IMG/VR virus record: IMGVR_UViG_3300035698_016797
Location: 117,031 to 181,030 of that record
DNA length: 64,000 nt
Reading direction: 5' to 3' (one strand)
From: a virus
In this document: piece by piece, positions 51,870 through 63,710 of the stretch
How the letters are laid out: the number at the start of each line of letters is the position of its first letter
Position numbering within the stretch: the first letter of the stretch is position 1
Notes under the pieces: generated by a model
Told to the model about the DNA's origin: nothing
Database searches by the model: none
What the model saw: the letters and a program-made list of their open reading frames with translations, nothing else
Position numbers and translations under genes: made by a program

Positions 51870-51898
51870 TTGACTTTTCTCAACATATGCAGTATACT
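51870..51898 (+). promoter_or_regulatory. Promoter P1 of the tRNA array
   Basis: TTGACT (51870-51875), a 17-base spacer, then TATACT (51893-51898), close to the vegetative sigma consensus. The expected start near 51905 lies 15 bases before leader ORF 1, so the transcript would begin with the leader RNA. Confidence 0.78.
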
Positions 51899-51919
51899 AT
51901 GCGTAAAGGAGATCGTCAG

Positions 51920-52000
51920 ATGAAAAACTTATATATCAACTTATCCTCACTCAGTTTGTACTGCCTGTATTTTTCGGGCAGTCGTAAGGAGGACTTGTAG
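51920..52000 (+). CDS. Leader peptide 1 (Leu/Ser/Tyr-rich)
   Basis: A 26-codon ORF with AAAGGAG eight bases before ATG, ending in TAG at 51998. The peptide has six Leu, five Ser, three Tyr and one Phe: 15 of 26 residues. The first tRNA genes downstream are Ser, Tyr, Leu, Phe, Leu, Leu, Ser and Leu. Every Leu, Ser, Tyr and Phe codon used can be read by a tRNA in this window. This is the pattern of an attenuator leader, such as those of the trp, his and leu operons, whose translation rate reports charged tRNA. The peptide itself is unlikely to have a function. Confidence 0.7.
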   Translation: MKNLYINLSSLSLYCLYFSGSRKEDL

Positions 52001-52061
52001 GCATATAATAATGTCGATCAGAAGAAAGTCAAACCCCTCCTTAACTGGATGGGGTTTTTTT
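51944..52061 (+). promoter_or_regulatory. Attenuator 1: alternative hairpins ending in a terminator
   Basis: TAAGGAGG (51985-51992) is perfectly complementary to CCTCCTTA (52036-52043), which overlaps the 5' arm of the terminator at 52033-52061. TCCTC in the leader (51944-51948) can pair with GAGGA (51989-51993) as a protector. A further stem ACTGCC/GGCAGT (51960-51965, 51977-51982) lies between. A ribosome stalled on mid-leader codons would block the protector and leave TAAGGAGG free to disrupt the terminator. A ribosome reaching the stop codon would cover TAAGGAGG and let the terminator form. Confidence 0.65.
52033..52061 (+). terminator. Intrinsic terminator of attenuator 1
   Basis: Stem ACCCC-TCC / GGA-(T)-GGGGT with a six-base loop and one bulged T, followed by seven T residues (52055-52061). 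It ends just 8 bases before tRNA-Ser(UGA), so it would shut off the whole array unless antitermination occurs. Confidence 0.75.
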
Positions 52062-52068
52062 ATGTATT

Positions 52069-52163
52069 GGAAAGGTGGCTGAGTCTGGATTAAGGCGGTG
52101 CTCTTGAAAAGCATTGAGCGGCGGTAACGTCCTCCGTGGGTTCAAATCCCACCCTTTCCGCCA
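52069..52163 (+). tRNA. tRNA-Ser(UGA)
   Basis: 7-bp acceptor GGAAAGG/CCTTTCC, long class II variable arm, anticodon loop CTTGAAA (UGA), T-arm GGTTCAAAT, CCA encoded. Reads UCA and, by wobble, UCG. It is the first gene after attenuator 1. Confidence 0.9.
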
Positions 52164-52168
52164 ACAAT

Positions 52169-52304
52169 GGATTGGTAAGTAATTGGCAGCTGTCCTGTGG
52201 GTAGTACTGAAAGCTGAAGGCTAATGGGTGATTGAAGGCCGCACCCCAGCAGAAGAACAATACAAGCCTTAGACGTTCGGGTTCGAATCCCGACCAATCC
52301 TACA
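52169..52304 (+). ncRNA. Aberrant tRNA-like element with extended anticodon domain
   Basis: A perfect 7-bp acceptor (GGATTGG/CCAATCC) and a standard T-arm (TCGGG TTCGAAT CCCGA) enclose an abnormal middle of about 100 bases. There is an 11-base linker, a CAGCT/AGCTG stem with a 20-base loop, and a 6-bp stem AAGGCT/AGCCTT. That stem encloses a further hairpin GGGTG/CACCC and a 42-base loop in total. No canonical 7-base anticodon loop is found and the 3' end reads ACA, not CCA. It may be a tRNA with a small insertion, a decayed tRNA or a distinct tRNA-like RNA. It sits between intact tRNA-Ser and tRNA-Tyr. Confidence 0.6.
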
Positions 52305-52308
52305 ATGA

Positions 52309-52393
52309 GGGTGTGTTGGACAGGTGGTGAGTCCAGTAGACTGTAAATCTACCGCAATAAGCTTTGGAGGTTCGATTCCTTCCATGCCCACCA
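52309..52393 (+). tRNA. tRNA-Tyr(GUA)
   Basis: Acceptor GGGTGTG/CATGCCC (two G-U pairs), class II variable arm, anticodon loop CTGTAAA (GUA), T-loop TTCGATT, CCA encoded. Reads UAU and UAC, the Tyr codons of leader 1. Confidence 0.88.
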
Positions 52394-52411
52394 AAAAAAA
52401 TGTTTAGCTCA

Positions 52412-52439
52412 TTGAAAATTGAAAAGTGTCTGATATAGT
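52412..52439 (+). promoter_or_regulatory. Promoter P2 candidate before tRNA-Leu(CAA)
   Basis: TTGAAA (52412-52417), 16-base spacer, TATAGT (52434-52439). The expected start is just before the tRNA at 52450. It would make an unattenuated transcript of the downstream genes. Confidence 0.5.
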
Positions 52440-52449
52440 TAGAACAGAT

Positions 52450-52536
52450 GGCCGTGTGGCGGAATTGGCAGACGCGCTAGACTCAAAATCTGGTGTTCGC
52501 AAGGGCGTGTGGGTTCGAGTCCCACCATGGCTACCA
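52450..52536 (+). tRNA. tRNA-Leu(CAA)
   Basis: Acceptor GGCCGTG/CATGGCT (G1-U72 and G5-U68 wobbles), D-arm TGGCGGAATTGGCAGACGC, class II variable arm, anticodon loop CTCAAAA (CAA), CCA encoded. Reads UUG. Confidence 0.9.
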
Positions 52537-52583
52537 ATCAACGTAATAATTCTGTGATAAATAGTAAAAAGGAGGATTTTATA

Positions 52584-52820
52584 ATGTTAAAGGCCACACA
52601 TTATTCTGGCGACGGAAAAGTGATAAGTGTATATAAAAATGTATTCACATATCTTACAGGGGTTGCGAGTGAAATCACTCTTCTTATAGACAATGATAAG
52701 ACAAGAAGAATGAGAAAAAAATATGAGTCTGGTAAAGGTATGATTGTACCAGAAGTTGAGTATTCAAAATATACTTCTATAACGATTTTTGGTAATGTGG
52801 TGGTTGAAAAAGATAATTAG
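52584..52820 (+). CDS. Small unknown protein
   Basis: A 78-residue protein starting at MLKATHYSGDG, with AAGGAGG eight bases upstream. It has a beta-rich N terminus and a basic middle (DNDKTRRMRKKYESG). No known motif. It lies between tRNA-Leu(CAA) and tRNA-Phe, eight bases from the latter. Confidence 0.5.
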   Translation: MLKATHYSGDGKVISVYKNVFTYLTGVASEITLLIDNDKTRRMRKKYESGKGMIVPEVEYSKYTSITIFGNVVVEKDN

Positions 52821-52827
52821 AAGAGGA

Positions 52828-52903
52828 TGAGCAATAGCCAACGTGGTCAAGGCGCTGGTCTGAAAAACCAGAGACCTCAGTTCGATTCTGAGTTGCTCAA
52901 CCA
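52828..52903 (+). tRNA. tRNA-Phe(GAA)
   Basis: Perfect 7-bp acceptor TGAGCAA/TTGCTCA, anticodon stem CTGGT/ACCAG, loop CTGAAAA (GAA), T-arm CTCAG TTCGATT CTGAG, CCA encoded. Confidence 0.92.
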
Positions 52904-52904
52904 T

Positions 52905-52934
52905 TTGACAATAGAAGAAATTGTACGATATTAT
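52905..52934 (+). promoter_or_regulatory. Promoter P3 candidate before tRNA-Leu(GAG)
   Basis: TTGACA (52905-52910), 18-base spacer, TATTAT (52929-52934). The expected start near 52941 is 22 bases before the tRNA. The -35 element is a perfect consensus. Confidence 0.6.
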
Positions 52935-52962
52935 TACTAGTGCGTATAAAGAACTAAATGAT

Positions 52963-53050
52963 GGTCGAGTGGCGGAATTGGCATACGCACTTGGTTGAGG
53001 GCCAAGGACACAGTAGTGTATTGAGAGTTCGAGTCTCTCCTCGACTACCA
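52963..53050 (+). tRNA. tRNA-Leu(GAG)
   Basis: Acceptor GGTCGAG/CTCGACT, class II variable arm, anticodon stem CTTGG/CCAAG, loop TTGAGGG (GAG), CCA encoded. Reads CUC and CUU; CTC occurs in leader 1. Confidence 0.9.
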
Positions 53051-53070
53051 AATTTGAGAATGTAAGTAAT

Positions 53071-53155
53071 GCCCCGGTGGCGGAATTGGCAGACGCGCCA
53101 GATTTAGGATCTGGTGTCGAAAGGCGTGCAGGTTCGAGACCTGTCTGGGGCACCA
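53071..53155 (+). tRNA. tRNA-Leu(UAG)
   Basis: Acceptor GCCCCGG/CTGGGGC, anticodon stem CCAGA/TCTGG, loop TTTAGGA (UAG), class II variable arm, CCA encoded. Reads CUA and CUG. Confidence 0.92.
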
Positions 53156-53175
53156 ACAATAGAAAGGGACAGATT

Positions 53176-53457
53176 ATGGCTAGAGTAAAAATCAACATGC
53201 CTGGTAACGACCCTGGTGCAAGAAGCATCATCGTTAATGACACTGATCTCACTGGATGTGTAGTGAGTATGGATCTTTCGATTGATCCAACTCAACATCC
53301 AGAAGTTGGACTGAAACTATTTGCAACAGACGTAAAGTTTGAAGGAGATGCAAATATCGTTATCAATGGAATAGAAATACCACAAGAATTGTGTGAAAAA
53401 ATCGCAGATGCTTTGCGCTATGCTTCTGCAAGTGAGCAGCAGAAAGATTCAACATAA
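53176..53457 (+). CDS. Small unknown protein
   Basis: A 93-residue protein starting at MARVKINMPGND, with AAAGGGACAGATT upstream; in-frame codons further upstream belong to the tRNA. Beta-rich (SIIVNDTDLTGCVVSMDLSI) with a helical acidic end (ELCEKIADALRYASASEQQ). Small phage proteins of this type (DxTGxVxSV) are common, function unknown. Confidence 0.5.
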   Translation: MARVKINMPGNDPGARSIIVNDTDLTGCVVSMDLSIDPTQHPEVGLKLFATDVKFEGDANIVINGIEIPQELCEKIADALRYASASEQQKDST

Positions 53458-53466
53458 GGAAAGTGC

Positions 53467-53557
53467 GGAGGGTTGCCAGAGCGGCCTATTGGTCCTGCTT
53501 GGAAAGCAGTGAGTCCCTCTGTGGGACACGAGAGTTCGAATCTCTCACCCTCCGCCA
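53467..53557 (+). tRNA. tRNA-Ser(GGA)
   Basis: Acceptor GGAGGGT/ACCCTCC, anticodon loop TTGGAAA (GGA), class II variable arm, CCA encoded. Reads UCC and UCU; TCC occurs in leader 1. It is 10 bases after the preceding stop codon and 6 bases before the Smr start. Confidence 0.9.
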
Positions 53558-53563
53558 CTACAC

Positions 53564-53884
53564 ATGTCAACACCAACATTTGACGCCCATGGACTGAAAC
53601 ATATGGAAGTAGCTCCGAAGCTTGAAGATTTTTTTCTTAAGCACGGAGCACCAATCAGAGTTATCACTGGAAAATCTCACATGATGAGGTTGATTTTAAT
53701 AGAACTGATGGCAAATTATGACCTAGAAGGATATCATCCAAACTTCAATAATACTGGAGAGGTTGTTGTAATTGAAAGGAATCGTAATGGTAATAAAAGT
53801 ACAAAAGCTAACGGACGTCCACTTGGCACAAAGAGCTTGCGCAATGACAACTTCAGGACGAAGGTCAGGAATAGACCTAGATAA
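53564..53884 (+). CDS. Smr-domain protein
   Basis: A 106-residue protein. The region TFDAHGLKHMEVAPKLEDFF then APIRVITGKSHMM and VVVIER has the Smr (small MutS-related) pattern: a DxHG motif and a TGK(G/S) motif. Smr domains nick or cut RNA or DNA; stand-alone ones have been linked to ribosome-collision mRNA cleavage. The ATG is 6 bases after the tRNA-Ser CCA end and has no ribosome binding site. Its 3' end overlaps the next gene by 98 bases. The Arg/Lys-rich C terminus is probably nucleic-acid binding. Confidence 0.65.
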   Translation: MSTPTFDAHGLKHMEVAPKLEDFFLKHGAPIRVITGKSHMMRLILIELMANYDLEGYHPNFNNTGEVVVIERNRNGNKSTKANGRPLGTKSLRNDNFRTKVRNRPR

Positions 53885-54302
53885 ACTATACCAGTGTGAA
53901 CACTCTCCTGTTAGAACTCAAATATTTTGGATAGAGATGTTAAACATTCCAACGTTTGTTTCCGTCCACTTTGTAAGACACAAGATAGGCGTTGAACACT
54001 TCGCAACAAGTAATAGGCCAGATAGGGGAACTGGAGAAGCCGACAGAATGACGCCAATTAACCACGGTATGCTCATTAATGCACAAGCACTAATAAACAT
54101 GGCAAAGAAGAGGTTGTGTTATCATGCGTCAAAAGAAACAAGGGAAACTATGATTGCAATCCTTAAGCAAATCAAAGTCGTTGATTCAGGTCTTTCTAAA
54201 CGAATGGTTCCAGAGTGTGTATATAGAGGAAAGATTTGTCACGAATTGAAACAGTGTGATTTTATGAAGGGAGCAATAGATCACTGTACGGATAGACGTT
54301 GA
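53787..54302 (+). CDS. ThyX-like protein (FAD-dependent thymidylate synthase family)
   Basis: A 171-residue protein if started at MVIKVQKLTDVH (AAAGGA six bases upstream). It contains EHSPVRTQIFWIEML, then VSVHFVRHKIGVEHFATSNR, then NAQALINMAKKRLCYHAS and MVPECVYRG, the pattern of phage ThyX relatives that make dTMP from dUMP. The standard ThyX motif is RHRxxSxNxxSxR; here it is RHKIGVEHFATSNR, altered at several places, so activity is uncertain. It overlaps the Smr gene by 98 bases and ends 8 bases before tRNA-Leu(UAA). Confidence 0.7.
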   Translation: MVIKVQKLTDVHLAQRACAMTTSGRRSGIDLDKLYQCEHSPVRTQIFWIEMLNIPTFVSVHFVRHKIGVEHFATSNRPDRGTGEADRMTPINHGMLINAQALINMAKKRLCYHASKETRETMIAILKQIKVVDSGLSKRMVPECVYRGKICHELKQCDFMKGAIDHCTDRR

Positions 54303-54310
54303 CGACTAAT

Positions 54311-54397
54311 GGCCGGATGGCGGAATTGGCAGACGCAACGGACTTAAAATCCGTTATCCAAAAGGGTGTGGGGGTTCGATTCCCCCTTCGGCCACCA
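54311..54397 (+). tRNA. tRNA-Leu(UAA)
   Basis: Acceptor GGCCGGA/TTCGGCC, anticodon stem ACGGA/TCCGT, loop CTTAAAA (UAA), class II variable arm, CCA encoded. Reads UUA and UUG, the commonest Leu codons of leader 1. Confidence 0.92.
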
Positions 54398-54432
54398 ATA
54401 ATAAATATAGAATACAGACCGTAGGAGAAAAC

Positions 54433-55545
54433 ATGAATTTATCAGAACCAAGCAATATATGTATTAAACCATGGTATGATCAAACCATAGATATGTCTGG
54501 GTGCTGGAGTTGTTGTGGAAACGTCAAAGACAGTGGAGCTATATTTTACGATGAGGATTGGAAAGGTCCATATGTTGGAGATGTTGATCACTGGAATAGT
54601 CCAGAAATGCAGAAATTTAGGAAGGATATGCTAGAAGGAGGAGCCAGCATTGCCTGCGGTATGGCAAAGTGTCCACAAAGATATCGTTCTGCATCAATAG
54701 GAGATAGAATTTTAGAGTTGAAACAAGGTTATAACATCAAAGATGAAAAGTCAAAATCTCAAATAGCAGAAGCCATAGAGAACAATAGACTTATTCTCGA
54801 TTACTCTGCTAAAAAAATTACATACATAGTTACAATGGCTTGTAATTCAAAATGTGCATATTGTTTTCAGATAAGCAAAAGAAAAGATGGTAGTCTAAAT
54901 CCTCCAGAAGGGTATGAAGATCATATTATACCAATTTTGACGAGTGCTAAAGCGGTAAGACTTGCTGGAGGAGAGGTGTTCGTACTTTCAGATAAAAAGT
55001 TGGATAAGTTTTTTGGACACAAAGATTGGGAAAATGTAGAACATGTGTGTGTTGTTACAAATGGAACACTATTGACGCCTGAAAGATATGAAAAATATGC
55101 AGCTAATGGCCCACTTAGCAACATTGAAATTAGTCTAAACACAATGAGCGCAGAAGAGATGTTGAATGAAACAGAAGATATGCTGTTCAAATGCGAAGAT
55201 AACATGAGGGGAATATATGAAAAATATCCAGACCACTGTGTTACAACGTTGAACGTTGCCATGTCTATAAATATCATAGACAGAATTGACGAAGTATTAG
55301 AGTTTGTAAAAAAGTATGGAATAAAAGAGATATTGATTCATCATATAAATGGAACAGTAATGGAATTGAGCGGTGTTGGACATCTTAATCCATACTGTAA
55401 AGAAGGCTATTCAGAAGAAGTTCACGAAAGACTTTTAAAGGTGGTTGATGTTGCGAAACAATTTACAAAAGAGAATGGAATCGGCCTAAGATATAGTACC
55501 ATTCCAATGTCCCTGGGAGAAATGAAGAAAGAGATGGCACAGTAG
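54433..55545 (+). CDS. Radical SAM protein, paralogue of the 37-38 kb enzyme
   Basis: A 370-residue protein with GTAGGAGAAAAC before ATG. Radical SAM motif CNSKCAYC (C137, C141, C144); GGE motif (RLAGGEVFVL). The N-terminal module has C10, C24, CC 27-28, C75 and C80 around EDWKGPYVGD, the same signature as its paralogue. Its last three codons and TAG stop are supplied by the first ten bases of tRNA-Cys. Its substrate is unknown. It lies between tRNA-Leu and tRNA-Cys, so a tRNA- or translation-linked role can be considered, but the paralogue's virion context suggests a shared protein-type substrate. Confidence 0.85.
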   Translation: MNLSEPSNICIKPWYDQTIDMSGCWSCCGNVKDSGAIFYDEDWKGPYVGDVDHWNSPEMQKFRKDMLEGGASIACGMAKCPQRYRSASIGDRILELKQGYNIKDEKSKSQIAEAIENNRLILDYSAKKITYIVTMACNSKCAYCFQISKRKDGSLNPPEGYEDHIIPILTSAKAVRLAGGEVFVLSDKKLDKFFGHKDWENVEHVCVVTNGTLLTPERYEKYAANGPLSNIEISLNTMSAEEMLNETEDMLFKCEDNMRGIYEKYPDHCVTTLNVAMSINIIDRIDEVLEFVKKYGIKEILIHHINGTVMELSGVGHLNPYCKEGYSEEVHERLLKVVDVAKQFTKENGIGLRYSTIPMSLGEMKKEMAQ

Positions 55546-55609
55546 TCAAGTGGTAAGACGCTGGTCTGCAAAACCAGTTACGTGGGTTCGATTCCCACCT
55601 GTGTCTCCA
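55536..55609 (+). tRNA. tRNA-Cys(GCA)
   Basis: Acceptor GGCACAG/CTGTGTC, anticodon stem CTGGT/ACCAG, loop CTGCAAA (GCA), U73, CCA encoded. Its U8-A9-G10 forms the stop codon of the radical SAM gene. Confidence 0.92.
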
Positions 55610-55623
55610 CAGAAAGGCTTACA

Positions 55624-56058
55624 ATGAAAATTAAGAACTTTTCAGGGCACTACGGATTCCTAAGCAATTTCTATGTTGAAAAAAATGGAAAGACGGCAGA
55701 GCATTATTTTCAAGCTTCCAAAACTCATGATAGAAAGTGGCAAGATCTCGTTAAGCTTCAGCATTCTCCAGAGGCTGCAAAAAAGTTTGGTAGATCGTTG
55801 CCTCTAAGAAAAGATTGGCAAAGTGTAAAAGTTGAGATAATGAGAATCGTTTTGGAACGTAAGTTTTCAGATCCAGAACTAAAACAAAAGCTTTTGGAAA
55901 CTGGAAATAGAGAATTAGTAGAAGGAAATACATGGCATGATAATTTCTGGGGAGATTGCAAATGTCACAAGTGCAGACATATTAAGGGTCGAAACGTATT
56001 AGGTATCTTGCTCATGAAAGTAAGGGATATGTTGAGATCTTTCGAAGAAGCAGAGTAG
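55624..56058 (+). CDS. NADAR (YbiA-like) family protein
   Basis: A 144-residue protein starting at MKIKNFSGHYG (GAAAGGCTTACA upstream). NADAR signatures are visible: FSGHYGFLSNFY, EHYFQASK, AKKFGRSLPLR, DW, KF..L...LL.TG..ELVEGN, D.FWG, N.LGILLMKVRDML. NADAR enzymes act on ADP-ribose derivatives; family members have been shown to remove ADP-ribose from guanine in DNA and oppose DarT-type toxins. A phage copy is therefore a likely defence counter-measure or NAD salvage enzyme. A CHKC insertion between the conserved blocks is unusual. The TAG stop shares one base with tRNA-Ser(GCU). Confidence 0.85.
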   Translation: MKIKNFSGHYGFLSNFYVEKNGKTAEHYFQASKTHDRKWQDLVKLQHSPEAAKKFGRSLPLRKDWQSVKVEIMRIVLERKFSDPELKQKLLETGNRELVEGNTWHDNFWGDCKCHKCRHIKGRNVLGILLMKVRDMLRSFEEAE

Positions 56059-56150
56059 GAGAGGTGCCAGAGTGGTTTATCGGGACAGTTTGCTAAACTG
56101 TTGGATCATGAGATGTGGTTCCCAGGGTTCGAATCCCTGTCTCTCCGCCA
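56058..56150 (+). tRNA. tRNA-Ser(GCU)
   Basis: Acceptor GGAGAGG/TCTCTCC, anticodon stem ACAGT/ACTGT, loop TTGCTAA (GCU), class II variable arm, CCA encoded. Reads AGU and AGC. Its G1 is the last base of the NADAR stop codon. Confidence 0.9.
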
Positions 56151-56177: not shown

Positions 56178-56205
56178 TTGACATAGTTCTTAATACAGGT
56201 ATAGT
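56178..56205 (+). promoter_or_regulatory. Promoter P4
   Basis: TTGACA (56178-56183), 16-base spacer, TATAGT (56200-56205). The expected start is near 56212, ten bases before the CAU tRNA. The transcript would run through leader ORF 2 and attenuator 2. Confidence 0.7.
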
Positions 56206-56221: not shown

Positions 56222-56300
56222 TGCGGAATGGAGAAGTCCGGCTTAACTCGCTTCGCTCATAACGAAGAGACCGTGGGTTCAAATCCCACTTCCGCTACCA
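56222..56300 (+). tRNA. tRNA with CAU anticodon (Met or Ile2)
   Basis: Anticodon stem CTTCG/CGAAG, loop CTCATAA (CAU), T-arm GTGGG TTCAAAT CCCAC, CCA encoded. Acceptor is GCGGAA/TTCCGC with U1-U72 unpaired; D-stem has A11-U24. It lacks the GGG/CCC anticodon stem of initiators. It may be elongator Met or a lysidine-type Ile; sequence alone does not decide. Confidence 0.85.
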
Positions 56301-56316: not shown

Positions 56317-56391
56317 ATGATTAGTTCAATTAGAAAATGGCGCAATAACGGTACAGGAAAAACGGGGGACTACTGCGCCTTGACCCCCTAG
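56317..56391 (+). CDS. Leader peptide 2 (Arg/Lys/Trp/Asn/Gly/Thr-rich)
   Basis: A 24-codon ORF with AAGGA nine bases before ATG, ending in TAG at 56389. Codons 6-17 read RKWRNNGTGKTG. The next tRNAs downstream are Gly(UCC), Trp, Gly(GCC), Thr, Asn, Lys, Arg(ACG), Arg(UCU), Ile. Each of these twelve codons can be read by one of them (AGA, AAA, TGG, CGC, AAT, AAC, GGT, ACA, GGA, AAA, ACG, GGG). The composition differs sharply from leader 1, which matches a different tRNA set. The peptide is probably only a sensor. Confidence 0.7.
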   Translation: MISSIRKWRNNGTGKTGDYCALTP

Positions 56392-56449
56392 TTGATCATT
56401 CATTTGATTATATACAAGACGAGGCGCTTAGGTGCCTCGTCTTTTTTTA
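56339..56449 (+). promoter_or_regulatory. Attenuator 2: mutually exclusive hairpins 1:2, 2:3, 3:4
   Basis: Segment 1 GGCGCA (56339-56344, codons Trp8-Arg9) pairs with TGCGCC (56374-56379). Segment 2 GCGCCTTG (56375-56382) pairs with segment 3 CGAGGCGC (56420-56427; 7 Watson-Crick pairs plus one G-U), which is the terminator 5' arm. A ribosome stalled over codons 8-16 blocks segment 1 and permits 2:3, so transcription continues. A ribosome at the stop codon covers segment 2 and the terminator forms. A GGGGG/CCCCC helix (56364-56368, 56384-56388) could add a pseudoknot. Confidence 0.7.
56417..56449 (+). terminator. Intrinsic terminator of attenuator 2
   Basis: Stem AGACGAGGCGC / GTGCCTCGTCT (one G-U) with a four-base TTAG loop, followed by a run of T. 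It ends directly at the next gene, tRNA-Gly(UCC). Confidence 0.88.
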
Positions 56450-56450: not shown

Positions 56451-56524
56451 GCGACTGTAGCATAGTGGTAATGCGCTGGACTTCCACTCCAGTCAGGAGG
56501 GTTCGATTCCCTCTAGTCGCTCCA
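56451..56524 (+). tRNA. tRNA-Gly(UCC)
   Basis: Acceptor GCGACTG/TAGTCGC, anticodon stem CTGGA/TCCAG, loop CTTCCAC (UCC), U73, CCA encoded. Reads GGA and GGG. It follows the terminator of attenuator 2 by a base or two. Confidence 0.92.
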
Positions 56525-56563
56525 GAAAAAGCTCCTTGACAATTGAATAAGATGGTGTAGAGT

Positions 56564-56641
56564 AGGTGAGTAGCTCAATTAGGCTAGAGCAGCGGTCTCC
56601 AAAACCGCAGGTTGCAGGTTCGATTCCTGTCTCACCTGCCA
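56564..56641 (+). tRNA. tRNA-Trp(CCA)
   Basis: Acceptor AGGTGAG/CTCACCT, anticodon stem GCGGT/ACCGC, loop CTCCAAA (CCA), G73, CCA encoded. The Trp codon of leader 2 is its cognate. Confidence 0.92.
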
Positions 56642-56656
56642 AACAAGGGTAACAAA

Positions 56657-56908
56657 ATGAATAAAGCAGCAATATTAGCAGCATACGACGATGATCAAGC
56701 AGAAATTTTAGCAGCATATGTCAACGTAGCATTAAGAGCAGATGAAGTGATAGAGTTCATAAAAAGAAAATATGGCGTTACTAGCGAAGATGGTTTTACA
56801 TGTATGTATATACTGAGACTGTCACAGGCACTAGATAGGCTGAAGGCAACAACAGGAGGACTTAACGATGGACAAGCCGATGAAGATGTATATTCTAGTG
56901 AAGAATGA
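56657..56908 (+). CDS. Small unknown helical protein
   Basis: An 83-residue protein starting at MNKAAILAAYDDD (AAGGGTAACAAA upstream). Mostly helical and acidic with a repeated AEILAAY motif near the start. No known domain. Its end overlaps the next gene by 41 bases, implying translational coupling. Confidence 0.5.
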   Translation: MNKAAILAAYDDDQAEILAAYVNVALRADEVIEFIKRKYGVTSEDGFTCMYILRLSQALDRLKATTGGLNDGQADEDVYSSEE

Positions 56909-57197
56909 TGTTGACTTAGGACATGCAATGTTGGCAGTTGCACATGGTGTGGCAGCTTGTATGAGACAATACAAGGATGATGAAGATTTGAATGAATGGC
57001 TTCTCGACTCCTTTAGGAAGGTTGTTTGCAAGGTTAACCAAAAAGAGTTTGATGCCGCAAAAACCCTTCTTGAAAAAAGAGTTATCATGACAGAGTGTGC
57101 GTTAGACAATCAGGAAACTGCCATTGTCTTTTGTCCGCGCAAAGAGTGGCCAAAACCGTTTAGTTGGTATAAGCTATATAGAACACAGAAAGATTAA
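56868..57197 (+). CDS. PTH2-like peptidyl-tRNA hydrolase family protein
   Basis: A 109-residue protein with AGGAGG eight bases before ATG. The region KMYILVKNDVDLGHAMLAVAHG, then FRKVVCKVNQKEF and ETAIVFCPRKE resembles the PTH2 fold, in which GHAMLAVAHG aligns with the conserved GK.aaQ.aHa helix. PTH2 enzymes release peptides from stalled peptidyl-tRNA. The conserved Lys and Gln of standard PTH2 are replaced here, so catalysis is uncertain. Its location in a tRNA array makes a translation-recycling role attractive. Confidence 0.6.
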   Translation: MDKPMKMYILVKNDVDLGHAMLAVAHGVAACMRQYKDDEDLNEWLLDSFRKVVCKVNQKEFDAAKTLLEKRVIMTECALDNQETAIVFCPRKEWPKPFSWYKLYRTQKD

Positions 57198-57200
57198 ACA

Positions 57201-58139: not shown

Positions 58140-58559
58140 ATGGATAATGATACAACCACAAACGAAGAGTTTGAGATTTTCAAGAAAGAATGTCTGTATT
58201 GGATAAATGAGTTCTGCCTTCATGATTGGGACGTAGAATTTTGGCACGAAGATATGTCTGAGGCGAAAGCCAGAACAGACTGGACTTGTGAAGGTAAGCT
58301 TGCCAGAATTACTTTTTCAAAAGACTGGAGTCATGTACACAAGACTGATGTTGCAATAAAAGCTTCCGCATTTCACGAGGCTACTGAACTATTACTTGCA
58401 GAGCTGAGCGCAATTTCAAACTGTGTTGTTGTTGATCACAAAAGAACTGACAGGGCAGTACATAGCGTTATACACAGACTTCAGCACATGTTGATTGATA
58501 GAGAGCGTGATGAAATCCAAATTGATATTGTTCAAAGTTTAAAAACAGAAGAGGTTTAA
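58140..58559 (+). CDS. Zincin-like phage protein (HExxE)
   Basis: A 139-residue protein. ASAFHEATELLLAELSAI resembles the HExxH helix of small phage metallopeptidase-like proteins, with the second His replaced by Glu, and VHSVIHRLQHML further on. The conserved context (a beta pair, then the helix, then a C-terminal helix) fits a SprT/zincin-like fold, but a complete zinc-ligand set is not visible. It starts 5 bases after the read-through frame and ends 2 bases before the next gene. Confidence 0.4.
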   Translation: MDNDTTTNEEFEIFKKECLYWINEFCLHDWDVEFWHEDMSEAKARTDWTCEGKLARITFSKDWSHVHKTDVAIKASAFHEATELLLAELSAISNCVVVDHKRTDRAVHSVIHRLQHMLIDRERDEIQIDIVQSLKTEEV

Positions 58560-58560
58560 T

Positions 58561-59286
58561 ATGCCTAGTGCAATGGTCCCATTTAGCAAGCTTCCAAAAC
58601 CAGAGTCTATAACGGTGGCAAAGGACAGGGGTACAGCATATGGGTACGACGTAATCCTTACAGAAGAATGTATGGAATTTTGTCATAGATACGCTACTAA
58701 GATGCACGAGGTATCAGGTTGTGTAAATATCAATCATGCCATGAGTGGAAAAAAGGGCGAATTTGTAACGTGTGCAGTCTTTATGCATTTAGCAGAAAAG
58801 CTCAAAAGTATGAAGATGAAAGTTATTCATCATGGATTCAGAAGCGAATATTCGTACGACGAAGAACATTTCAAGGATGATATGATGATGGTAATGGGGA
58901 AAAGAGAACATGTACAGTTTGAAATAAAAACATCTGCATGTAATGATCTGGAAAATAGAAGGCCGGGCGGCTTAAGCTGTTCTTTTGATTCTATTCTGAT
59001 AAAGATGGTATACATTTTTTGTCTAGCACCAAAAGAAAATCCTAACCATGTAAGAATTATAGGATGTGCAACACCAAATCATTTAAGAAGGCATTGCATT
59101 ATAAGACACAGGGGAGATATAATGAGCAATAAGGGTGGAGTCATAAAGGAAAGACGTCTGACGGATTGGTCTATCAGATGTAGAAATATGATACCTTTAA
59201 CAGAGGGAACAGTAGAAGATTTGAAATTTCGAAGATATAAGAAAATGGACATTAAATACAACGATATCGGTGGTAAAGTTAGATAG
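58561..59286 (+). CDS. Putative PD-(D/E)XK nuclease-like protein
   Basis: A 241-residue protein. EFVTCAVFMHLAEKLKSM, then FKDDMMMVMGKREHVQFEIKTS gives a helix, an Asp and an (E)xK motif (D...EIKTS) as in PD-(D/E)XK nucleases and related type II restriction enzymes. The C-terminal half is basic. Might cut host or competitor DNA or act in recombination. The motif is seen by eye and the spacing fits, but no partner methyltransferase adjoins it. Confidence 0.45.
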   Translation: MPSAMVPFSKLPKPESITVAKDRGTAYGYDVILTEECMEFCHRYATKMHEVSGCVNINHAMSGKKGEFVTCAVFMHLAEKLKSMKMKVIHHGFRSEYSYDEEHFKDDMMMVMGKREHVQFEIKTSACNDLENRRPGGLSCSFDSILIKMVYIFCLAPKENPNHVRIIGCATPNHLRRHCIIRHRGDIMSNKGGVIKERRLTDWSIRCRNMIPLTEGTVEDLKFRRYKKMDIKYNDIGGKVR

Positions 59287-59292
59287 ATATGA

Positions 59293-59367
59293 TCGCCAGT
59301 AGCTCAATGGTAGAGTATCCGGCTGTTAACCGGAAGGTTGAAGGTTCGAACCCTTCTTGGCGAGCCA
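59293..59367 (+). tRNA. tRNA-Asn(GUU)
   Basis: Acceptor TCGCCAG/TTGGCGA, anticodon stem TCCGG/CCGGA, loop CTGTTAA (GUU), G73, CCA encoded. Confidence 0.93.
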
Positions 59368-59386
59368 AATTAAGAAAGGTACAACA

Positions 59387-59686
59387 ATGTCATCAGGTCA
59401 ATATGGATTCTATGGGAAAACAGGCGTATTTAACAATGATGGATTCTTTAACGAAGGACAAAGGGTTCCTATTAAACCGTGTTCGTGCGGTGGCAATGTA
59501 CAAATATATTGTGAGTACGAAGAAATGATAGGGTGGAAAGGAACAGATTTTCAAATTGTTTGCCGCAACTGTAAGAGGCAGACTAAAATTGGAATAGATT
59601 TTGCACTGTTAATAGACAATTGGAACGACGACGATGTTTTGCCAAAAGAAAAACATCACGCATGGTCCTTACCTAATAGCCCTTGA
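59387..59686 (+). CDS. Lar-like (restriction alleviation family) zinc-ribbon protein
   Basis: A 99-residue protein starting at MSSGQYGFYGK (AGAAAGGTACAACA upstream). The layout KPCSCGGNVQIYC, then FQIVCRNCKRQTKI, then IDNWND matches the Lar/phage zinc-ribbon family, whose E. coli Rac member alleviates type I restriction. Many phage homologues are uncharacterised. It overlaps promoter P5 at its 3' end. Confidence 0.55.
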   Translation: MSSGQYGFYGKTGVFNNDGFFNEGQRVPIKPCSCGGNVQIYCEYEEMIGWKGTDFQIVCRNCKRQTKIGIDFALLIDNWNDDDVLPKEKHHAWSLPNSP

Positions 59687-59710
59687 CAAAGTGAACACAC
59701 GGTATATATT
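59683..59710 (+). promoter_or_regulatory. Promoter P5
   Basis: TTGACA (59683-59688), 16-base spacer, TATATT (59705-59710). The start near 59717 is 20 bases upstream of the membrane protein gene. It could let the last block be expressed without passing attenuator 2. Confidence 0.65.
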
Positions 59711-59736
59711 GTAAGAAGTTAAAAGAAAGGAATACA

Positions 59737-60024
59737 ATGATAGCAGATATTATAAACGCATCCTTTGAATTACTTGCAGGATTGTTCATAGCTAACAATT
59801 GCAGGTGTATTGTGAGGGATAAGGAAATCAAAGGTGTAAGTGCAATTTCAATATTGTTCTTTACGTTCTGGGGCTACTGGAACCTCTACTACTATCCAAG
59901 CTTAGGACAGATATGGAGTTTCATAGGTGGTATCGTTGTGGTAAGCGCAAATACGGCCTGGATAGGATTAATTGCATACTATAGGATTAAAACAAGGAGT
60001 TTGGAAAATGGACAAACCAGCTAG
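59737..60024 (+). CDS. Small membrane protein
   Basis: A 95-residue protein with GAAAGGAATACA before ATG. Three hydrophobic segments (about residues 3-20, 38-55 and 60-82), with the aromatic run FWGYWNLYYYPSLGQ between the second and third. It resembles a small phage inner-membrane protein family of unknown function. Its end overlaps the HD gene by 17 bases. Confidence 0.6.
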   Translation: MIADIINASFELLAGLFIANNCRCIVRDKEIKGVSAISILFFTFWGYWNLYYYPSLGQIWSFIGGIVVVSANTAWIGLIAYYRIKTRSLENGQTS

Positions 60025-60544
60025 AGACGATGTTAACTGGATAGAAACCACAAACGGAAGATTGGCATATCCACTCAATCCAAAACCTGAAGACATGTTC
60101 ATTGACGATATTGCACACTCTTTGTCGTTGCAATGCAGGTTTACGGGTCACTGTTCTAAGTTCTACAGCGTAGCAGAGCACTGTGTGCTTGGTTCGAGAC
60201 TCTGCGACAGTCCAAGGTGGATGTTACTACACGACGCATCGGAGGCATATCTTACAGACATAGCAAGGCCAGTAAAGAGACTGTTACCAAAAGTTAAGGA
60301 AATTGAAAACGATTTACTGTGGTGTGTGGCCGCAAGGTTTAACCTTATATGGCCAATGCCGGAATGTGTCAAAATAACAGATGATAGAATGCTCATTACT
60401 GAAAGAAATCAAATTATGCCAAAAAGTCAACACGTTTGGGGAATAGATAAGATTGGTTTGGAACCGTACGATATTAAGATTGAATATTGGACTCCAGAGG
60501 TTGCAGAGGCAGAATTCTTCAAAAGATTTTACGAACTGAGTTAG
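60008..60544 (+). CDS. HD-domain phosphohydrolase (YfbR-like)
   Basis: A 178-residue protein starting at MDKPARDDVNW, with AAGGAG nine bases upstream. HD ligands are visible: FTG..SKFYSVAEHC (H58), LLHDASEAYLTDIARPVK (H75, D76, E79, D84) and VKITDDRML. This is the pattern of YfbR-type 5'-nucleotidases acting on deoxynucleoside monophosphates, found in many phages. It probably shapes nucleotide pools with the ThyX-like and MazZ-like enzymes. Confidence 0.78.
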   Translation: MDKPARDDVNWIETTNGRLAYPLNPKPEDMFIDDIAHSLSLQCRFTGHCSKFYSVAEHCVLGSRLCDSPRWMLLHDASEAYLTDIARPVKRLLPKVKEIENDLLWCVAARFNLIWPMPECVKITDDRMLITERNQIMPKSQHVWGIDKIGLEPYDIKIEYWTPEVAEAEFFKRFYELS

Positions 60545-60554
60545 GAGTAAAACA

Positions 60555-60776
60555 ATGCTTACTGTTGAATGTAAAATTAACGGTTATCCGATTACAACTA
60601 CGCTTATACGCAATGTTACAAAGGAGCAGAATTGGGACAAAGCAATACACACGTATGAAGTTAAACACTCAAGCAATAACGGTAAGCTTATAGAGTTCTT
60701 GATAGAACACATTAGAAACCAGGGGTCAGAAAAGCTTGTAGAAATAGTAATGAAGGAAATTTACGGGCGCTTGTAG
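60555..60776 (+). CDS. Small unknown protein ending inside tRNA-Lys
   Basis: A 73-residue protein with TTAGGAGTAAAACA before ATG. Beta-alpha pattern (MLTVECKINGYPITTTLIRN, then IEFLIEHIRNQGSEKLVEIV). No motif known. Its last two codons and TAG stop are the first ten bases of tRNA-Lys; U8-A9-G10 of the tRNA is the stop codon, as in the radical SAM/tRNA-Cys junction. Confidence 0.5.
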   Translation: MLTVECKINGYPITTTLIRNVTKEQNWDKAIHTYEVKHSSNNGKLIEFLIEHIRNQGSEKLVEIVMKEIYGRL

Positions 60777-60845
60777 CTCAGCCAGGTTTAGAGCATCGGA
60801 CTTTTAATCCGAGGGTCCAGGGTTCGAATCCCTGCGGGCGCACCA
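60767..60845 (+). tRNA. tRNA-Lys(UUU)
   Basis: Acceptor GCGCTTG/CGGGCGC, anticodon stem TCGGA/TCCGA, loop CTTTTAA (UUU), A73, CCA encoded. Reads AAA, a leader 2 codon. Confidence 0.93.
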
Positions 60846-60861
60846 AAATCAGGAGATAACA

Positions 60862-61065
60862 ATGGATAGTAAAGATGGAACACTTTGTCCCAGGTGGGAA
60901 GATCCTGTCCAAAGAAATATCATTCCAGGACAGGATATGCAAAGAGCGGGACATGTTGACATCATTTTCGTTGGCGAAGAAGAGGAGACTGCTCATTCGT
61001 CATATCTCGAAGAAGATTTTTCAAACGACGAATTAATAGGAGCGAGTGGGCGATTAGCTCAATAG
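60862..61065 (+). CDS. Small acidic unknown protein ending inside tRNA-Arg
   Basis: A 67-residue protein with CAGGAGATAACA before ATG. Acidic, with no motif known (DIIFVGEEEETAHSSYLEED). Its last codons (GRLAQ and stop) are read from tRNA-Arg(ACG): the stop is a UAG in the D-loop. The overlap is 18 bases. Confidence 0.5.
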   Translation: MDSKDGTLCPRWEDPVQRNIIPGQDMQRAGHVDIIFVGEEEETAHSSYLEEDFSNDELIGASGRLAQ

Positions 61066-61124
61066 AATAGAGCACCTGGCTACGAACCAGGAGGTTGGGG
61101 GTTTGAATCCCTCATCGCTCGCCA
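61048..61124 (+). tRNA. tRNA-Arg(ACG)
   Basis: Acceptor GGGCGAT/ATCGCTC, anticodon stem CCTGG/CCAGG, loop CTACGAA (ACG; inosine expected at position 34), G73, CCA encoded. Reads CGU, CGC and CGA; CGC occurs in leader 2. Confidence 0.92.
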
Positions 61125-61131
61125 CATTTTT

Positions 61132-61668
61132 ATGGAATATCTAAGATCGGAAAAAGAATACATCTATTTGAATTACGTATGTGAAAGAGTAGAGTCCTAT
61201 TTTCCAGAAGCACAAACAATGCTTGATGTAGGTAGTAATACCGGCCTTTATCTGAAAAGGTTCGAATGGATTCCAAGTGTGACAGCTATAGATATCTTAA
61301 CAGTACCAAGCTTTGATTTTGTCAACGGAATCAAGGCAAACTTTCTTGAGCATGACTTTGAAGGTCAGTCTTTTGAAGTAGTAACGTGTCTGCAAATGCT
61401 TGAACACGTAAAAAATCCAAGAGACTTTTTTGTTAAGATGGTTGAGTTGACAAAAGGAGTTTTGATAGTATCTTTACCATACAAGTGGAGTGCAGACAGT
61501 ATTGCAGACCACATTCACGATCCAATTGACGACAAGAAGATGATGGATTGGTTTGGAGCTTTCCCCACACACTGTTGTACCATTACGGAGCCGGAAAATA
61601 GAGGTATTAGAGTGATATGCCTATTCAGATTCTACGACGAAAAGCAGAAAGAGAGATATTATGGCTAA
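61132..61668 (+). CDS. SAM-dependent methyltransferase (class I)
   Basis: A 178-residue protein. Motif I MLDVGSNTGLYLKRF (residues 30-44), an acidic AIDI, motif FEVVTCLQMLEHVKNP, and a later VLIVSLPYKW follow the class I Rossmann methyltransferase order. No target domain is visible, so a small-molecule or other substrate is likely. The ATG is seven bases after the tRNA-Arg CCA end and no ribosome binding site is seen. It overlaps the next gene by 8 bases. Confidence 0.72.
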   Translation: MEYLRSEKEYIYLNYVCERVESYFPEAQTMLDVGSNTGLYLKRFEWIPSVTAIDILTVPSFDFVNGIKANFLEHDFEGQSFEVVTCLQMLEHVKNPRDFFVKMVELTKGVLIVSLPYKWSADSIADHIHDPIDDKKMMDWFGAFPTHCCTITEPENRGIRVICLFRFYDEKQKERYYG

Positions 61669-61960
61669 TGCAATTGTGATCAGCAGGTTTGGAAAACTTC
61701 TGGGAGTTTTTACTCAAAAACAAAAGGCATGGCAATCTATACAGGAATGTGAAGAGGAAGAAGACTTGGAGAAGATTCTTGTGATGGTTGATTCCAGACC
61801 AACAGCAAGAGAGGAAGTTGTTCCATTAACATATGCAAAGCTATGCAAGCAGTTGTCTGAAATGGGTCGTGCAGACATAAGGTCTGTTACAAAGCTTGAA
61901 CCGGCTCAAATTAGATATGGACTATGGCAAGTTGAAATTAATGTCCCAGTAGCTCAGTAG
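61661..61960 (+). CDS. Small unknown protein ending inside split tRNA-Arg
   Basis: A 99-residue protein with AGAGAGATATT before ATG. Helical and acidic (AWQSIQECEEEEDLEKILVM), no known motif. The last codons (NVPVAQ and stop) are read from the 5' exon of tRNA-Arg(UCU); the UAG stop is in the D-loop, as at the ACG tRNA. Confidence 0.5.
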   Translation: MANAIVISRFGKLLGVFTQKQKAWQSIQECEEEEDLEKILVMVDSRPTAREEVVPLTYAKLCKQLSEMGRADIRSVTKLEPAQIRYGLWQVEINVPVAQ

Positions 61961-61976
61961 ATAGAGCAACTGACTT

Positions 61977-62582
61977 TAACTAAAAAGGAGCGTTCTATGT
62001 GGAAGATTGAGAAGATTGTTAGCAAGGGCGATTACGATTACGCTGTTGTTTTCAAACATCCCACAGCAACCAAACACGGGTATGTATTGGAACATCGGAT
62101 AGTAATAGAGAATAGTCTGGGTAGGCTTCTCAATCCAAATGAAGTTGTTCATCATAAAAACGGTGATCGAAAAGACAATCGCTTAGAAAATCTTAAAGTA
62201 ATGAAACGTAAAGAACATTGTTCTAAACATGGATTGAAACAAGGCAGGTTATGGGTAGTATTAAAATGCCCTGAATGCGCTAAGATTTTCGAGAAACCAA
62301 AGAATAAATCCTTTCTTCAACAGGGCACGAGTTACACAACTTGTTCACCACAATGTAGAGGAAGATTTTCTAGAAAGATGCAACTTCAAGGAATAACCAT
62401 AGAACTGGAGAGGGCTATATCGGGGAATCTCGTAAGTAAGTATAGGAAATACTCCACGACAATCCCGAGCAAACCATTAACAATGGGATGCGTAGAGGCC
62501 ATACGCCCTCAGTCTGGAATGGCTAAGAGATGGTCCAGCCAGCAAGCTTGAAAAAGTGGTTATGGAAACATGATGCTGGAAG
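61977..62582 (+). mobile_element. Group I intron in the tRNA-Arg anticodon
   Basis: 606 bases, between anticodon positions 34 and 35. The core has a P-like ATATCGGGGAA (62416-62426), Q-like GACAATCCCGAGC (62458-62470), an R-like GCGTAGAGGCCATACGC (62490-62506) and S-like AAGAGATGGTCC (62524-62535). P4 can form between CGGG and CCCG. An HNH endonuclease frame occupies 61997-62551 and overlaps the core. Confidence 0.75.
61997..62551 (+). CDS. HNH homing endonuclease inside the group I intron
   Basis: A 184-residue protein with GGAG eight bases before ATG. HNH core: HGYVLEHRIVIENSLGRLL, then NEVVHHKNGDRKDNRLENL (HH 52-53, N61, N64), the zinc-stabilised beta-beta-alpha-metal nuclease. A CPEC...CSPQC pair of motifs follows and may bind a structural zinc. 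The C-terminal ~45 residues coincide with the intron core (P, Q, R and S), so this part serves both protein and ribozyme and may be tolerated rather than selected. It would cut intronless alleles to spread the intron. Confidence 0.85.
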   Translation: MWKIEKIVSKGDYDYAVVFKHPTATKHGYVLEHRIVIENSLGRLLNPNEVVHHKNGDRKDNRLENLKVMKRKEHCSKHGLKQGRLWVVLKCPECAKIFEKPKNKSFLQQGTSYTTCSPQCRGRFSRKMQLQGITIELERAISGNLVSKYRKYSTTIPSKPLTMGCVEAIRPQSGMAKRWSSQQA

Positions 62583-62639
62583 CTAATCAGTAGGTCGTAG
62601 GTGCAAATCCTACCTGGGACACCAACTAGAAAGAACAAT

Positions 62640-63230
62640 ATGACACATTCAGATTTTGGACAAGACGTATATATCAGAGACAGATTCTTCCGTGGATCAA
62701 AGTCTGGGTGCTGTTTGGAGGCTGGTGCTCAAGATGGAGAATCCCACAGCAACACTCTTTTGTTTGAAGAGGAGCATGAGTGGGATAGAATTTTGATAGA
62801 GCCAGATCCAAAACACATGCAAGTTTTGAAGACAAGAAAGAATGGTAGAAAGTATTGTGCACCCCTGTGGGATGTAACCGGCGATACTGTGGTAATGAAC
62901 GACATCAATAAGAACGGATGGACCCACATAGATAAATATGGTCCTAAGAATGTAGAGATTGTCCACCAGTGGAATGCTGTCACAATCGGGATTAACGATG
63001 TGTTGCCACAATATACAGACTTGGTATCGCTGGACACAGAAGGATCAGAGCATGTAATTGTTGGAGCAATAGACTTTAGTAGATTCAAAATTGCAGTGTT
63101 CCTCATTGAAGCAAAGGAGTCAAGAGAATATATTGGTAAAATCCTCAAAAGAGAAGGGTATATATTCTACAATACAATCAAGCATGACGTAATCTATTAT
63201 GATCCAAAACTGATACAGCCGAAAGGATAG
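62640..63230 (+). CDS. FkbM-family methyltransferase
   Basis: A 196-residue protein starting at MTHSDFGQDVYI (AGAAAGAACAAT upstream). CCLEAGAQDGESHSNTLLFE, IEPDPKHM, and TDLVSLDTEGSEH are the SAM-binding and acidic motifs of FkbM-type enzymes, which often methylate sugar or natural-product hydroxyls. With the glycosyltransferase it could modify virion or cell glycans. It is separated from the tRNA-Arg 3' exon by 15 bases. Confidence 0.75.
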   Translation: MTHSDFGQDVYIRDRFFRGSKSGCCLEAGAQDGESHSNTLLFEEEHEWDRILIEPDPKHMQVLKTRKNGRKYCAPLWDVTGDTVVMNDINKNGWTHIDKYGPKNVEIVHQWNAVTIGINDVLPQYTDLVSLDTEGSEHVIVGAIDFSRFKIAVFLIEAKESREYIGKILKREGYIFYNTIKHDVIYYDPKLIQPKG

Positions 63231-63234
63231 TTAA

Positions 63235-63612
63235 ATGCTATTAGCAGTGCCAGAAGAAGAGAGAAAGCGTAAAAAAACGCTTCCAAAATATGTAGACGCC
63301 AACAACGTTGAACACATGAAGGCTATGCAAATCTTCTTTGAAACAGGAGGATTTCCAAGAGAGTTCGTAGAAGGTGTTCCAAAGGATATGGAATTTACAC
63401 AATTTTGGTTTGTACAACTTCTTGAAAAGTTGGCAAAGAAATGGGTACAATATAAATTGTCAGAGATTAAACCGGAGTCTACCGAGCCAGCAGATGCTGC
63501 TCCACCTCCAACTGTTGCAAAGGATGACTCCGGTCCTTCAGTGAAAAAGAGAGTTCGTAAACGTAAGCCAAAGACTAAAGAGGATACTAAAAGTGAAAAA
63601 ACGCAAAAGTAA
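63235..63612 (+). CDS. Small protein with basic disordered C terminus
   Basis: A 125-residue protein with AAAGGATAGTTAA before ATG. N-terminal helical region (MKAMQIFFETGGFP, then MEFTQFWFVQLLEKLAKKW) and a long Lys/Arg/Pro-rich tail (KKRVRKRKPKTKEDTKSEK). Probably nucleic-acid binding. No known family. Confidence 0.5.
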   Translation: MLLAVPEEERKRKKTLPKYVDANNVEHMKAMQIFFETGGFPREFVEGVPKDMEFTQFWFVQLLEKLAKKWVQYKLSEIKPESTEPADAAPPPTVAKDDSGPSVKKRVRKRKPKTKEDTKSEKTQK

Positions 63613-63632
63613 ATCTCGAATATGTCCCATGT

Positions 63633-63710
63633 TGGGGCATAGCTTAGTCTGGTTAAAGCATCCGTCTTATAAACGGAAGACCATGAGTTCAAATCTCATT
63701 GTCCCTACCA
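63633..63710 (+). tRNA. tRNA-Ile(UAU)
   Basis: Anticodon stem TCCGT/ACGGA, loop CTTATAA (UAU), T-arm ATGAG TTCAAAT CTCAT, CCA encoded. Acceptor GGGGCA/TGTCCC with U1-U72 unpaired. Bacteria usually read AUA with a lysidine CAU tRNA; this UAU species avoids lysidine. Confidence 0.88.

Follow-up and report, generated by a model that had tools for sequence, protein, structure and literature searches.

Leader ORFs matched to their own tRNA blocks point to ribosome-mediated attenuation of phage tRNA operons

Introduction

In the amino-acid operons of enterobacteria (trp, his, ilvGMEDA, leu, thr), transcription is attenuated through a short open reading frame (ORF) that lies near the promoter, carries regulatory codons and is followed by an intrinsic terminator placed before the genes; a ribosome that reaches the stop codon excludes the antiterminator. 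The pheST attenuator of E. coli, with its leader PheM, turns the same principle into a homeostat of the translation apparatus, in that Phe codons regulate phenylalanyl-tRNA synthetase. In T-box riboswitches, too, the status of a tRNA controls translation-related operons via the choice between terminator and antiterminator. Here we analyze a 64,000-nucleotide stretch of a viral genome (the window; bases 117,031-181,030 of the 181,030-base IMG/VR record IMGVR_UViG_3300035698_016797), in which short leader ORFs stand before blocks of tRNA genes.

These phage leaders share the anatomy of the amino-acid attenuators, but they control tRNA genes, address up to about a dozen amino acids per leader, carry sensing codons that are spread over the leader instead of clustered, and would sense the very molecule that the operon produces. 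The pheST attenuator, in contrast, is a bacterial device that responds to a single amino acid and regulates a synthetase rather than tRNAs, and the T-box binds its tRNA directly, without translation. We consider it very probable that each tRNA block described below forms an operon whose transcription is controlled by a ribosome-mediated attenuator that samples nearly all tRNAs of the block. A first-pass annotation of the window had proposed that its leaders sense the products of their own tRNA sets, an interpretation that the sequence comparisons reported here support; its accompanying remark that amino-acid attenuators sense one amino acid was too strong, since ilvL and thrL sense several.

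Results

Three tRNA blocks, each preceded by a leader

The two ends of the record share a 127-base overlap, and the genome, of ~180.9 kb, is therefore circular and complete. Coordinates are window positions, and L026 denotes the stretch of the same record beyond the circular junction, which holds the rest of block 2, block 3 and leader 3. ARAGORN detects 19 tRNA genes in the window, and a twentieth, tRNA-Arg-UCU, emerges once a 606-base intron is removed. Block 2 extends beyond the junction with Lys-CUU and Arg-CCU, and a further eleven tRNAs are encoded on the opposite strand, which brings the genome to 33 tRNA genes in three blocks (Table 1). The order at each block is the same: promoter, an ORF of 24-30 codons, an intrinsic terminator, and the tRNAs. 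A Shine-Dalgarno (SD) sequence or a -10 box adjoins the ATG in the focal and related leaders, and the ORFs are predicted to be translated. Together the three leaders cover 19 amino acids, every one except Met, and their sets hardly overlap. Ile is the only amino acid with tRNAs in two blocks, and Met, the sole amino acid that no leader would sense, has its tRNA transcribed ahead of attenuator 2.

The first-pass annotation had located both leaders of the window, with their terminators and tRNA runs, correctly. Its tRNA lists were also right as far as they went: the eight tRNAs named for block 1 are present, as are Cys-GCA and Ser-GCU, which it had omitted and which are both represented in leader 1, and those named for block 2 stand, with Arg-UCU proving to be the split gene. 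What it took for a pair of leaders, however, is a set of three, the third lying across the record junction. Neither a T-box (RF00230) nor any other leader family of Rfam accounts for these elements, as only tRNA, transfer-messenger RNA (tmRNA) and sub-threshold look-alikes were matched.

Leader codons match the downstream tRNAs

All ten regulated anticodons of block 1 (Ser-UGA, Ser-GGA, Ser-GCU, Leu-UAA, Leu-CAA, Leu-GAG, Leu-UAG, Tyr, Phe and Cys) have a codon in leader 1, and the block 1 tRNAs read 16 of its 25 codons; none of 37,616 in-frame windows taken from the phage's own genes matched it on both measures. Leader 2, the core of which consists of 12 consecutive cognate codons, covers 8 of the 11 block 2 anticodons (Arg-UCU, Lys-UUU, Trp, Arg-ACG, Asn, Gly-GCC, Thr-UGU and Gly-UCC), the three that it misses belonging to the most distal genes, and was equalled by 690 of 37,782 such windows (about 0.018). 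Off-diagonal matches were far weaker in this own-gene test, in agreement with the earlier claim that the composition of each leader fits its own block and differs from that of the other. The tRNAs of block 3 predict a leader enriched in Ala, Pro, Gln, Ile, Glu, His, Val and Asp, and all eight are present in leader 3; this prediction was made from the tRNA block before the upstream sequence was considered, but was written down only after that sequence had been read. Leader 3 is flanked by a TTGACA..TAGTAT promoter and a ribosome site on its 5' side and by a strong terminator on its 3' side, just before tRNA-Ala, and taken alone it is modestly unlikely when set against the phage's own genes (about 0.010).

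The design recurs in unrelated phages

Searches of GenBank phages and IMG/VR with the terminase and radical-SAM proteins retrieved no close relative that offered a usable tRNA region; the capsid protein matched a single 2.2-kb fragment, and the 179-aa upstream neighbour retrieved only unrelated loci without tRNAs. A first survey of IMG/VR, which scanned for a T-run just 5' of a tRNA and then screened for an ORF and a terminator, recovered the same design in unrelated viral contigs. Three of these (L060, L101 and L150) led to a freshwater family (L152-L172) of 22 loci, in which 12 distinct leaders preceding tRNA-Gly were read, and another record (L055) holds two leaders, one of which, starting MTKLIFKQYKQQPKQKSTQ, precedes only Gln and Lys. 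In LR756511, a 595-kb uncultured huge phage in GenBank, the leader VHTFSASLRLSSYSLSSLLYSNVRRGT stands before Ser, Leu and Tyr tRNAs, and the leader of Vibrio phage D69 covers all 11 amino acids of its own block. Two more scans and a structural rule that makes no use of codon content added further clear cases, namely L266 (Leu, Ser, Tyr, Trp), L321 (Ser, Arg, Trp), L334 (Trp, Pro, Tyr, Cys) and L371 (Ser, Cys, His).

Erythrobacter phages vB_EliS-L02 and XM05 carry three leaders each. In vB_EliS-L02, leader 1, starting MFNVIAMNNPAPAIMVP, addresses Pro, Val, Ile, Ala and Asn; leader 2, MTFGRTKRDRREGDERGFTS, addresses Lys, Gly, Asp, Glu, Arg and Phe and misses Ile; and leader 3, MFTQTALHLLTQTTLCWQCQYSSLSPF, addresses Ser, Tyr, Leu, Thr, His, Gln, Cys and Trp. 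The first-pass annotation had made its proposal depend on retention of the leader in relatives that keep the array, and a leader is indeed present at all distinct freshwater-family loci with the array start in view and in both Erythrobacter phages.

Across 11 hand-collected pairs of leader and array, the leaders fit their own arrays better than those of the others in residues (0.66 vs 0.34), amino acids covered (0.98 vs 0.64) and anticodons (0.89 vs 0.48), and none of 200,000 permutations reached the observed value. These pairs were partly picked by their match, and hence the 11 candidates chosen by the structural rule provide a fairer test; here the permutation p-values were 1.7e-4 for residues, 9.3e-4 for amino acids and 2.3e-5 for anticodons, and L261, L268, L355 and L363, four survey candidates that visual inspection had classed as false or doubtful, were all kept in this test. 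The codon enrichment against shuffled controls that the first-pass annotation had called for thus survives on both sets. The same rule yielded 11 distinct candidates among 125 viral loci and none among 47 bacterial loci with tRNA arrays (p 0.026, in a small sample).

Might the peptides be functional in themselves, as arrest peptides or small proteins, the codon match being a by-product? The leader ORF of D69 (L179:7409-7552) forms part of an annotated hypothetical protein, VPHD69_0165, the start of which lies further upstream. Between the two Erythrobacter phages, however, leader 3 keeps its codon set while the order is scrambled (CWQCQY / YCQWQY) and a 10-bp hairpin covaries, which suggests selection on codon content and RNA shape rather than on the peptide. 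The peptides of different lineages have no common sequence, only the match to their own arrays, and we regard a peptide function as very improbable.

A second alternative is that the leaders respond to levels of charged tRNA that fall when amino acids run short, as in trp or his attenuation, the tRNAs being merely the regulated genes. It is favored by the fact that the match is demonstrable at the level of the amino acid, with codon choice within an amino acid following phage usage. Yet in the freshwater family CTA occurs in the sensing stretch exactly where the array has a Leu-UAG gene (9 of the 9 arrays seen at length). Furthermore, the genes downstream of the focal leaders (tRNA genes, peptidyl-tRNA hydrolase PTH2, a release-factor-like protein with an RF-1 domain, and others) do not make the sensed amino acids, no biosynthesis gene is among them, and extra uncharged tRNA would not relieve starvation. 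We consider this explanation unlikely.

Some features of these loci are recorded here in their own right. In the freshwater family and in the third Erythrobacter leaders (EliS3 and XM05_3), the leader ATG lies about 6-10 bases 3' of the -10 box, and the leader mRNAs therefore look leaderless. Directly before tRNA-Ile-UAU, L160-L164 carry a leaderless mini-ORF of 13-14 codons, MMTHFSIAGSISIR or MMKHFSIAGSISIR, with three ATA codons; it ends in a ATACGTTGA/TCAACGTAT hairpin without a T-run and was seen only where this tRNA, which reads ATA, is present. In vB_EliS-L02, a permuted tmRNA of alphaproteobacterial type, above the Rfam gathering score, follows the tRNA array (L181:7572-7980).

A modelled switch tied to ribosome position

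We folded the RNA downstream of a ribosome placed at each codon and recorded the probability that the 5' arm of the terminator is captured. The model predicts that the last part of the ORF contributes an antiterminator, which is freed when the ribosome stalls upstream. In leader 1, UAAGGAGG is predicted to capture the terminator arm with a probability of ~1.0 with A-site codons 2-19 and 0.11 at codon 20; modelled capture in leader 2 is at least 0.99 through codon 17 and 0.01 at codon 21, whereas that in leader 3 stays at 1.0 as far as codon 20 and is 0.06 at the next codon, 21. The runs of cognate codons end at codons 19, 17 and 21, respectively. Over 11 leaders, 146 of 212 residues (69%) are cognate inside the modelled window vs 21 of 87 (24%) beyond its end (p=1.1e-12). 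The position at which the cognate codons cease correlates with the end of the modelled window (r=0.88, the window end of L266 having been placed at codon 16 by inspection). Two independent readings, one from codons and one from RNA folding, are therefore linked.

Antiterminator duplexes are overall stronger than those of dinucleotide shuffles (Fisher p=1.3e-6). In the freshwater family, the antiterminator pairs the last codons and the stop codon with a terminator arm in 12 of 12 members, and four of its eight core pairs have double compensatory changes, despite the overlap with those last codons and the stop codon. A mutually exclusive antiterminator tied to ribosome position is thus supported by modelling and covariation, although not in every leader. 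A hairpin that may correspond to the pause (1:2) hairpin of trp/his-type attenuators is present in leader 1 and, covarying, in EliS3/XM05_3, and is not systematic.

The model likewise predicts the antiterminator when no ribosome is on the leader. In leader 1 the antiterminator strand is not sequestered by a leader hairpin, and absence of translation should therefore give read-through, unlike the superattenuation of trp. The prediction for the ribosome-free leader lends some weight to a general sensor of translation speed, in which any slow-down (host shut-off, low energy, drugs) would produce read-through and the codons would simply follow phage style; blocked translation may switch the tRNAs on. 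But such a sensor does not explain why leaders fit their own block and not the other blocks of the same phage, nor why cognate codons stop near the predicted window edge, and it seems quite unlikely to us. Short ORFs are common, and leader 2 or leader 3 alone would be only a 1-2% event, so one could also ask whether ORFs and terminators near tRNA genes have acquired their composition by coincidence; the permutation tests, the coincidence at the window edge, the agreement of leader 3 with its prediction, and conservation with covariation make chance hardly credible.

Several results weigh against attenuation by tRNA sensing as a complete account. Leaders 2 and 3 are, singly, only modestly unlikely, and sensing at the level of isoacceptors is not significant in the focal phage, where the choice among synonymous codons does not exceed what codon usage would give; in the freshwater family, Val, Ile and Pro codons do not track array content. 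The modelled capture of leader 3 partly recovers after codon 21, and EliS2, EliS3, XM05_2, XM05_3 and LR756511 lack either a clean modelled switch or a canonical U-run (an intrinsic terminator separates leader and genes in the focal three and most others, the canonical U-run being absent from EliS2, EliS3 and their XM05 counterparts). Duplexes of focal leaders 1 and 3, D69, LR756511, EliS1, L266 and L371 do not singly exceed shuffles. Finally, no leader was detected at ten other array regions, those of GMA2, BcepSaruman, Aeromonas TSW001, Phabba, XacN1, CcrRogue, S-H25, Bitten, SH9 and RB11-B.

Neighbouring genes

Thy1-like, radical-SAM and NADAR ORFs are interspersed in block 1, the radical-SAM protein (54433-55545) and the NADAR-domain protein (55627-56058) lying between tRNA genes; another radical-SAM-like ORF, comparable in length to the first, is located at 37196-38311. 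A 130-base stretch at 52165-52304 has matching acceptor-like ends and a perfect T-arm, with no recognised tRNA and weak tmRNA matches, and is a candidate for a tRNA-like gene with a large insert or for a degenerate tmRNA or tRNA. RtcB is absent from the focal phage. Among the structural genes, a 5,506-residue ORF (3297-19817) probably encodes the tape measure protein.

Table 1. Features of the three leader-tRNA operons (window positions unless prefixed L026).
Feature	Position	Strand	Basis
Promoter 1, TTGACT-17-TATACT	51870..51898	+	sequence; transcription start inferred at about 51905
Leader 1 ORF MKNLYINLSSLSLYCLYFSGSRKEDL; SD AAGGAG immediately 5'	51920..52000	+	ORF, codon match to block 1
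Leader 1 putative sensing window, codons 4-19: TTA TAT .. TTA TCC TCA CTC AGT TTG TAC TGC CTG TAT TTT TCG	51929..51976	+	fold model, codon match
Hairpin inside leader 1, ACTGCCTG/CGGGCAGT	51960..51982	+	sequence, fold model
Predicted antiterminator 1, 5' element TAAGGAGG, partner 52036-52043	51985..51992	+	fold model; duplex alone not significant, p 0.12
Terminator 1, CCCCTCC-TTAACT-GGATGGGG-T7 (TTTTTTT), directly 5' of tRNA-Ser	52034..52061	+	sequence, fold model
tRNA block 1: Ser-UGA, Tyr-GUA, Leu-CAA, Phe-GAA, Leu-GAG, Leu-UAG, Ser-GGA, Leu-UAA, Cys-GCA, Ser-GCU	52069..56150	+	tRNA prediction
Promoter 2, TTGACA-16-TATAGT	56178..56205	+	sequence
tRNA-Met-CAU, 5' of attenuator 2 and not sensed by it	56222..56300	+	tRNA prediction
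Leader 2 ORF MISSIRKWRNNGTGKTGDYCALTP	56317..56391	+	ORF, codon match to block 2
Leader 2 putative sensing core, codons 6-17: AGA AAA TGG CGC AAT AAC GGT ACA GGA AAA ACG GGG	56332..56367	+	codon match, fold model
Predicted antiterminator 2, 5' element GCGCCTTG, partner CGAGGCGC 56420-56427	56375..56382	+	fold model; duplex p 0.010
Terminator 2, AAGACGAGGCGC-TTAG-GTGCCTCGTCTT-T5, 12 pairs, directly 5' of tRNA-Gly	56416..56448	+	sequence, fold model
tRNA block 2: Gly-UCC, Trp-CCA, Gly-GCC, Thr-UGU, Asn-GUU, Lys-UUU, Arg-ACG, Arg-UCU (split), Ile-UAU	56451..63710	+	tRNA prediction
Peptidyl-tRNA hydrolase PTH2 gene within block 2	56868..57197	+	PF01981 E 2.8e-7
tRNA-Arg-UCU, split by intron (61977-62582)	61946..62623	+	spliced and checked
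HNH endonuclease ORF inside Arg-UCU intron	61997-62551	+	domain match
Block 2 continuation over circular junction: Lys-CUU, Arg-CCU	L026:262-426		tRNA prediction
Leader 3 ORF MRLYKTQRQHLDVQEAIPVAPCGRGCLVCV, outside window, before Ala..Gln tRNA block	L026:6545-6637	-	ORF, ribosome site
RF-1-domain protein with GGQ motif within block 3	L026:1992-2327	-	domain match

Discussion

We suggest that each leader ORF, with one or a few codons for nearly every tRNA of its own block, would act as follows. When all sensed tRNAs are plentiful, the ribosome would follow RNA polymerase to the stop codon and mask the antiterminator strand in the last part of the ORF; the terminator hairpin would then form, and transcription would halt before the tRNAs. 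A shortage of any one of these tRNAs, or of its charged form, would make the ribosome stall in the sensing stretch, the exposed antiterminator strand would capture the 5' arm of the terminator, and the polymerase would read through into the tRNA genes. The tRNA product would then relieve its own induction signal, making the operon a multi-input homeostat of the tRNA pool. Sensing of tRNA scarcity by the ribosome would follow from the anatomy; we infer both stalling as the signal and the sign of the response. The sensing stretch is only some 13-33 codons long, which may be why a phage with 33 tRNAs needs three operons. PTH2, RF-1/GGQ proteins and tmRNA act on stalled ribosomes and dropped peptidyl-tRNA, and the location of a PTH2 gene in block 2, an RF-1/GGQ protein in block 3 and a tmRNA after the vB_EliS-L02 array would suit an operon induced by stalling.

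By their target, these leaders would form a branch separate from the trp and his attenuators, working in the same way on tRNA and associated genes instead of biosynthesis genes. Our verdict is that this is a real, recurrent regulatory device, in which attenuation is known in kind and what is new is the target (phage tRNA operons), the many inputs per leader and the product as signal. No prior description of leader-attenuated phage tRNA operons was found in open-access papers, subscription journals and preprints being outside the search, and papers on phage tRNAs and on vB_EliS-L02 make no mention of such a leader.

The purpose of phage tRNA arrays has been a matter of debate for decades, with codon compensation, late decay of host tRNAs and evasion of anticodon nucleases among the proposals. 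Phage tRNA arrays of the same kind are thought to replace tRNAs cut by host defenses, in papers where the terms leader peptide and attenuation are never used (PMC10264068, PMC11555353, PMC7824862). We infer that the natural trigger may be depletion of tRNAs by host defense or decay; the first-pass annotation had named anticodon nucleases and late translation load as examples. On balance we lean towards a widespread, undescribed phage device, in which the leader would serve as an OR-gate over many tRNAs, switching on those tRNA genes, along with ribosome-rescue factors, as soon as one of the tRNAs is exhausted; arrays would thereby be deployed on demand against tRNA-cleaving host defense. The device may have arisen in many lineages independently or spread among them. 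If arrays are indeed switched on by a shortage of their own products, then the phages themselves show when their tRNAs are needed, and the purpose of the arrays would become testable through terminator read-through under each suspected trigger. As a naturally occurring multi-input sensor of tRNAs, the leaders would also lend themselves to use as a reporter, and they would offer a simple criterion for recognizing regulated arrays in thousands of genomes.

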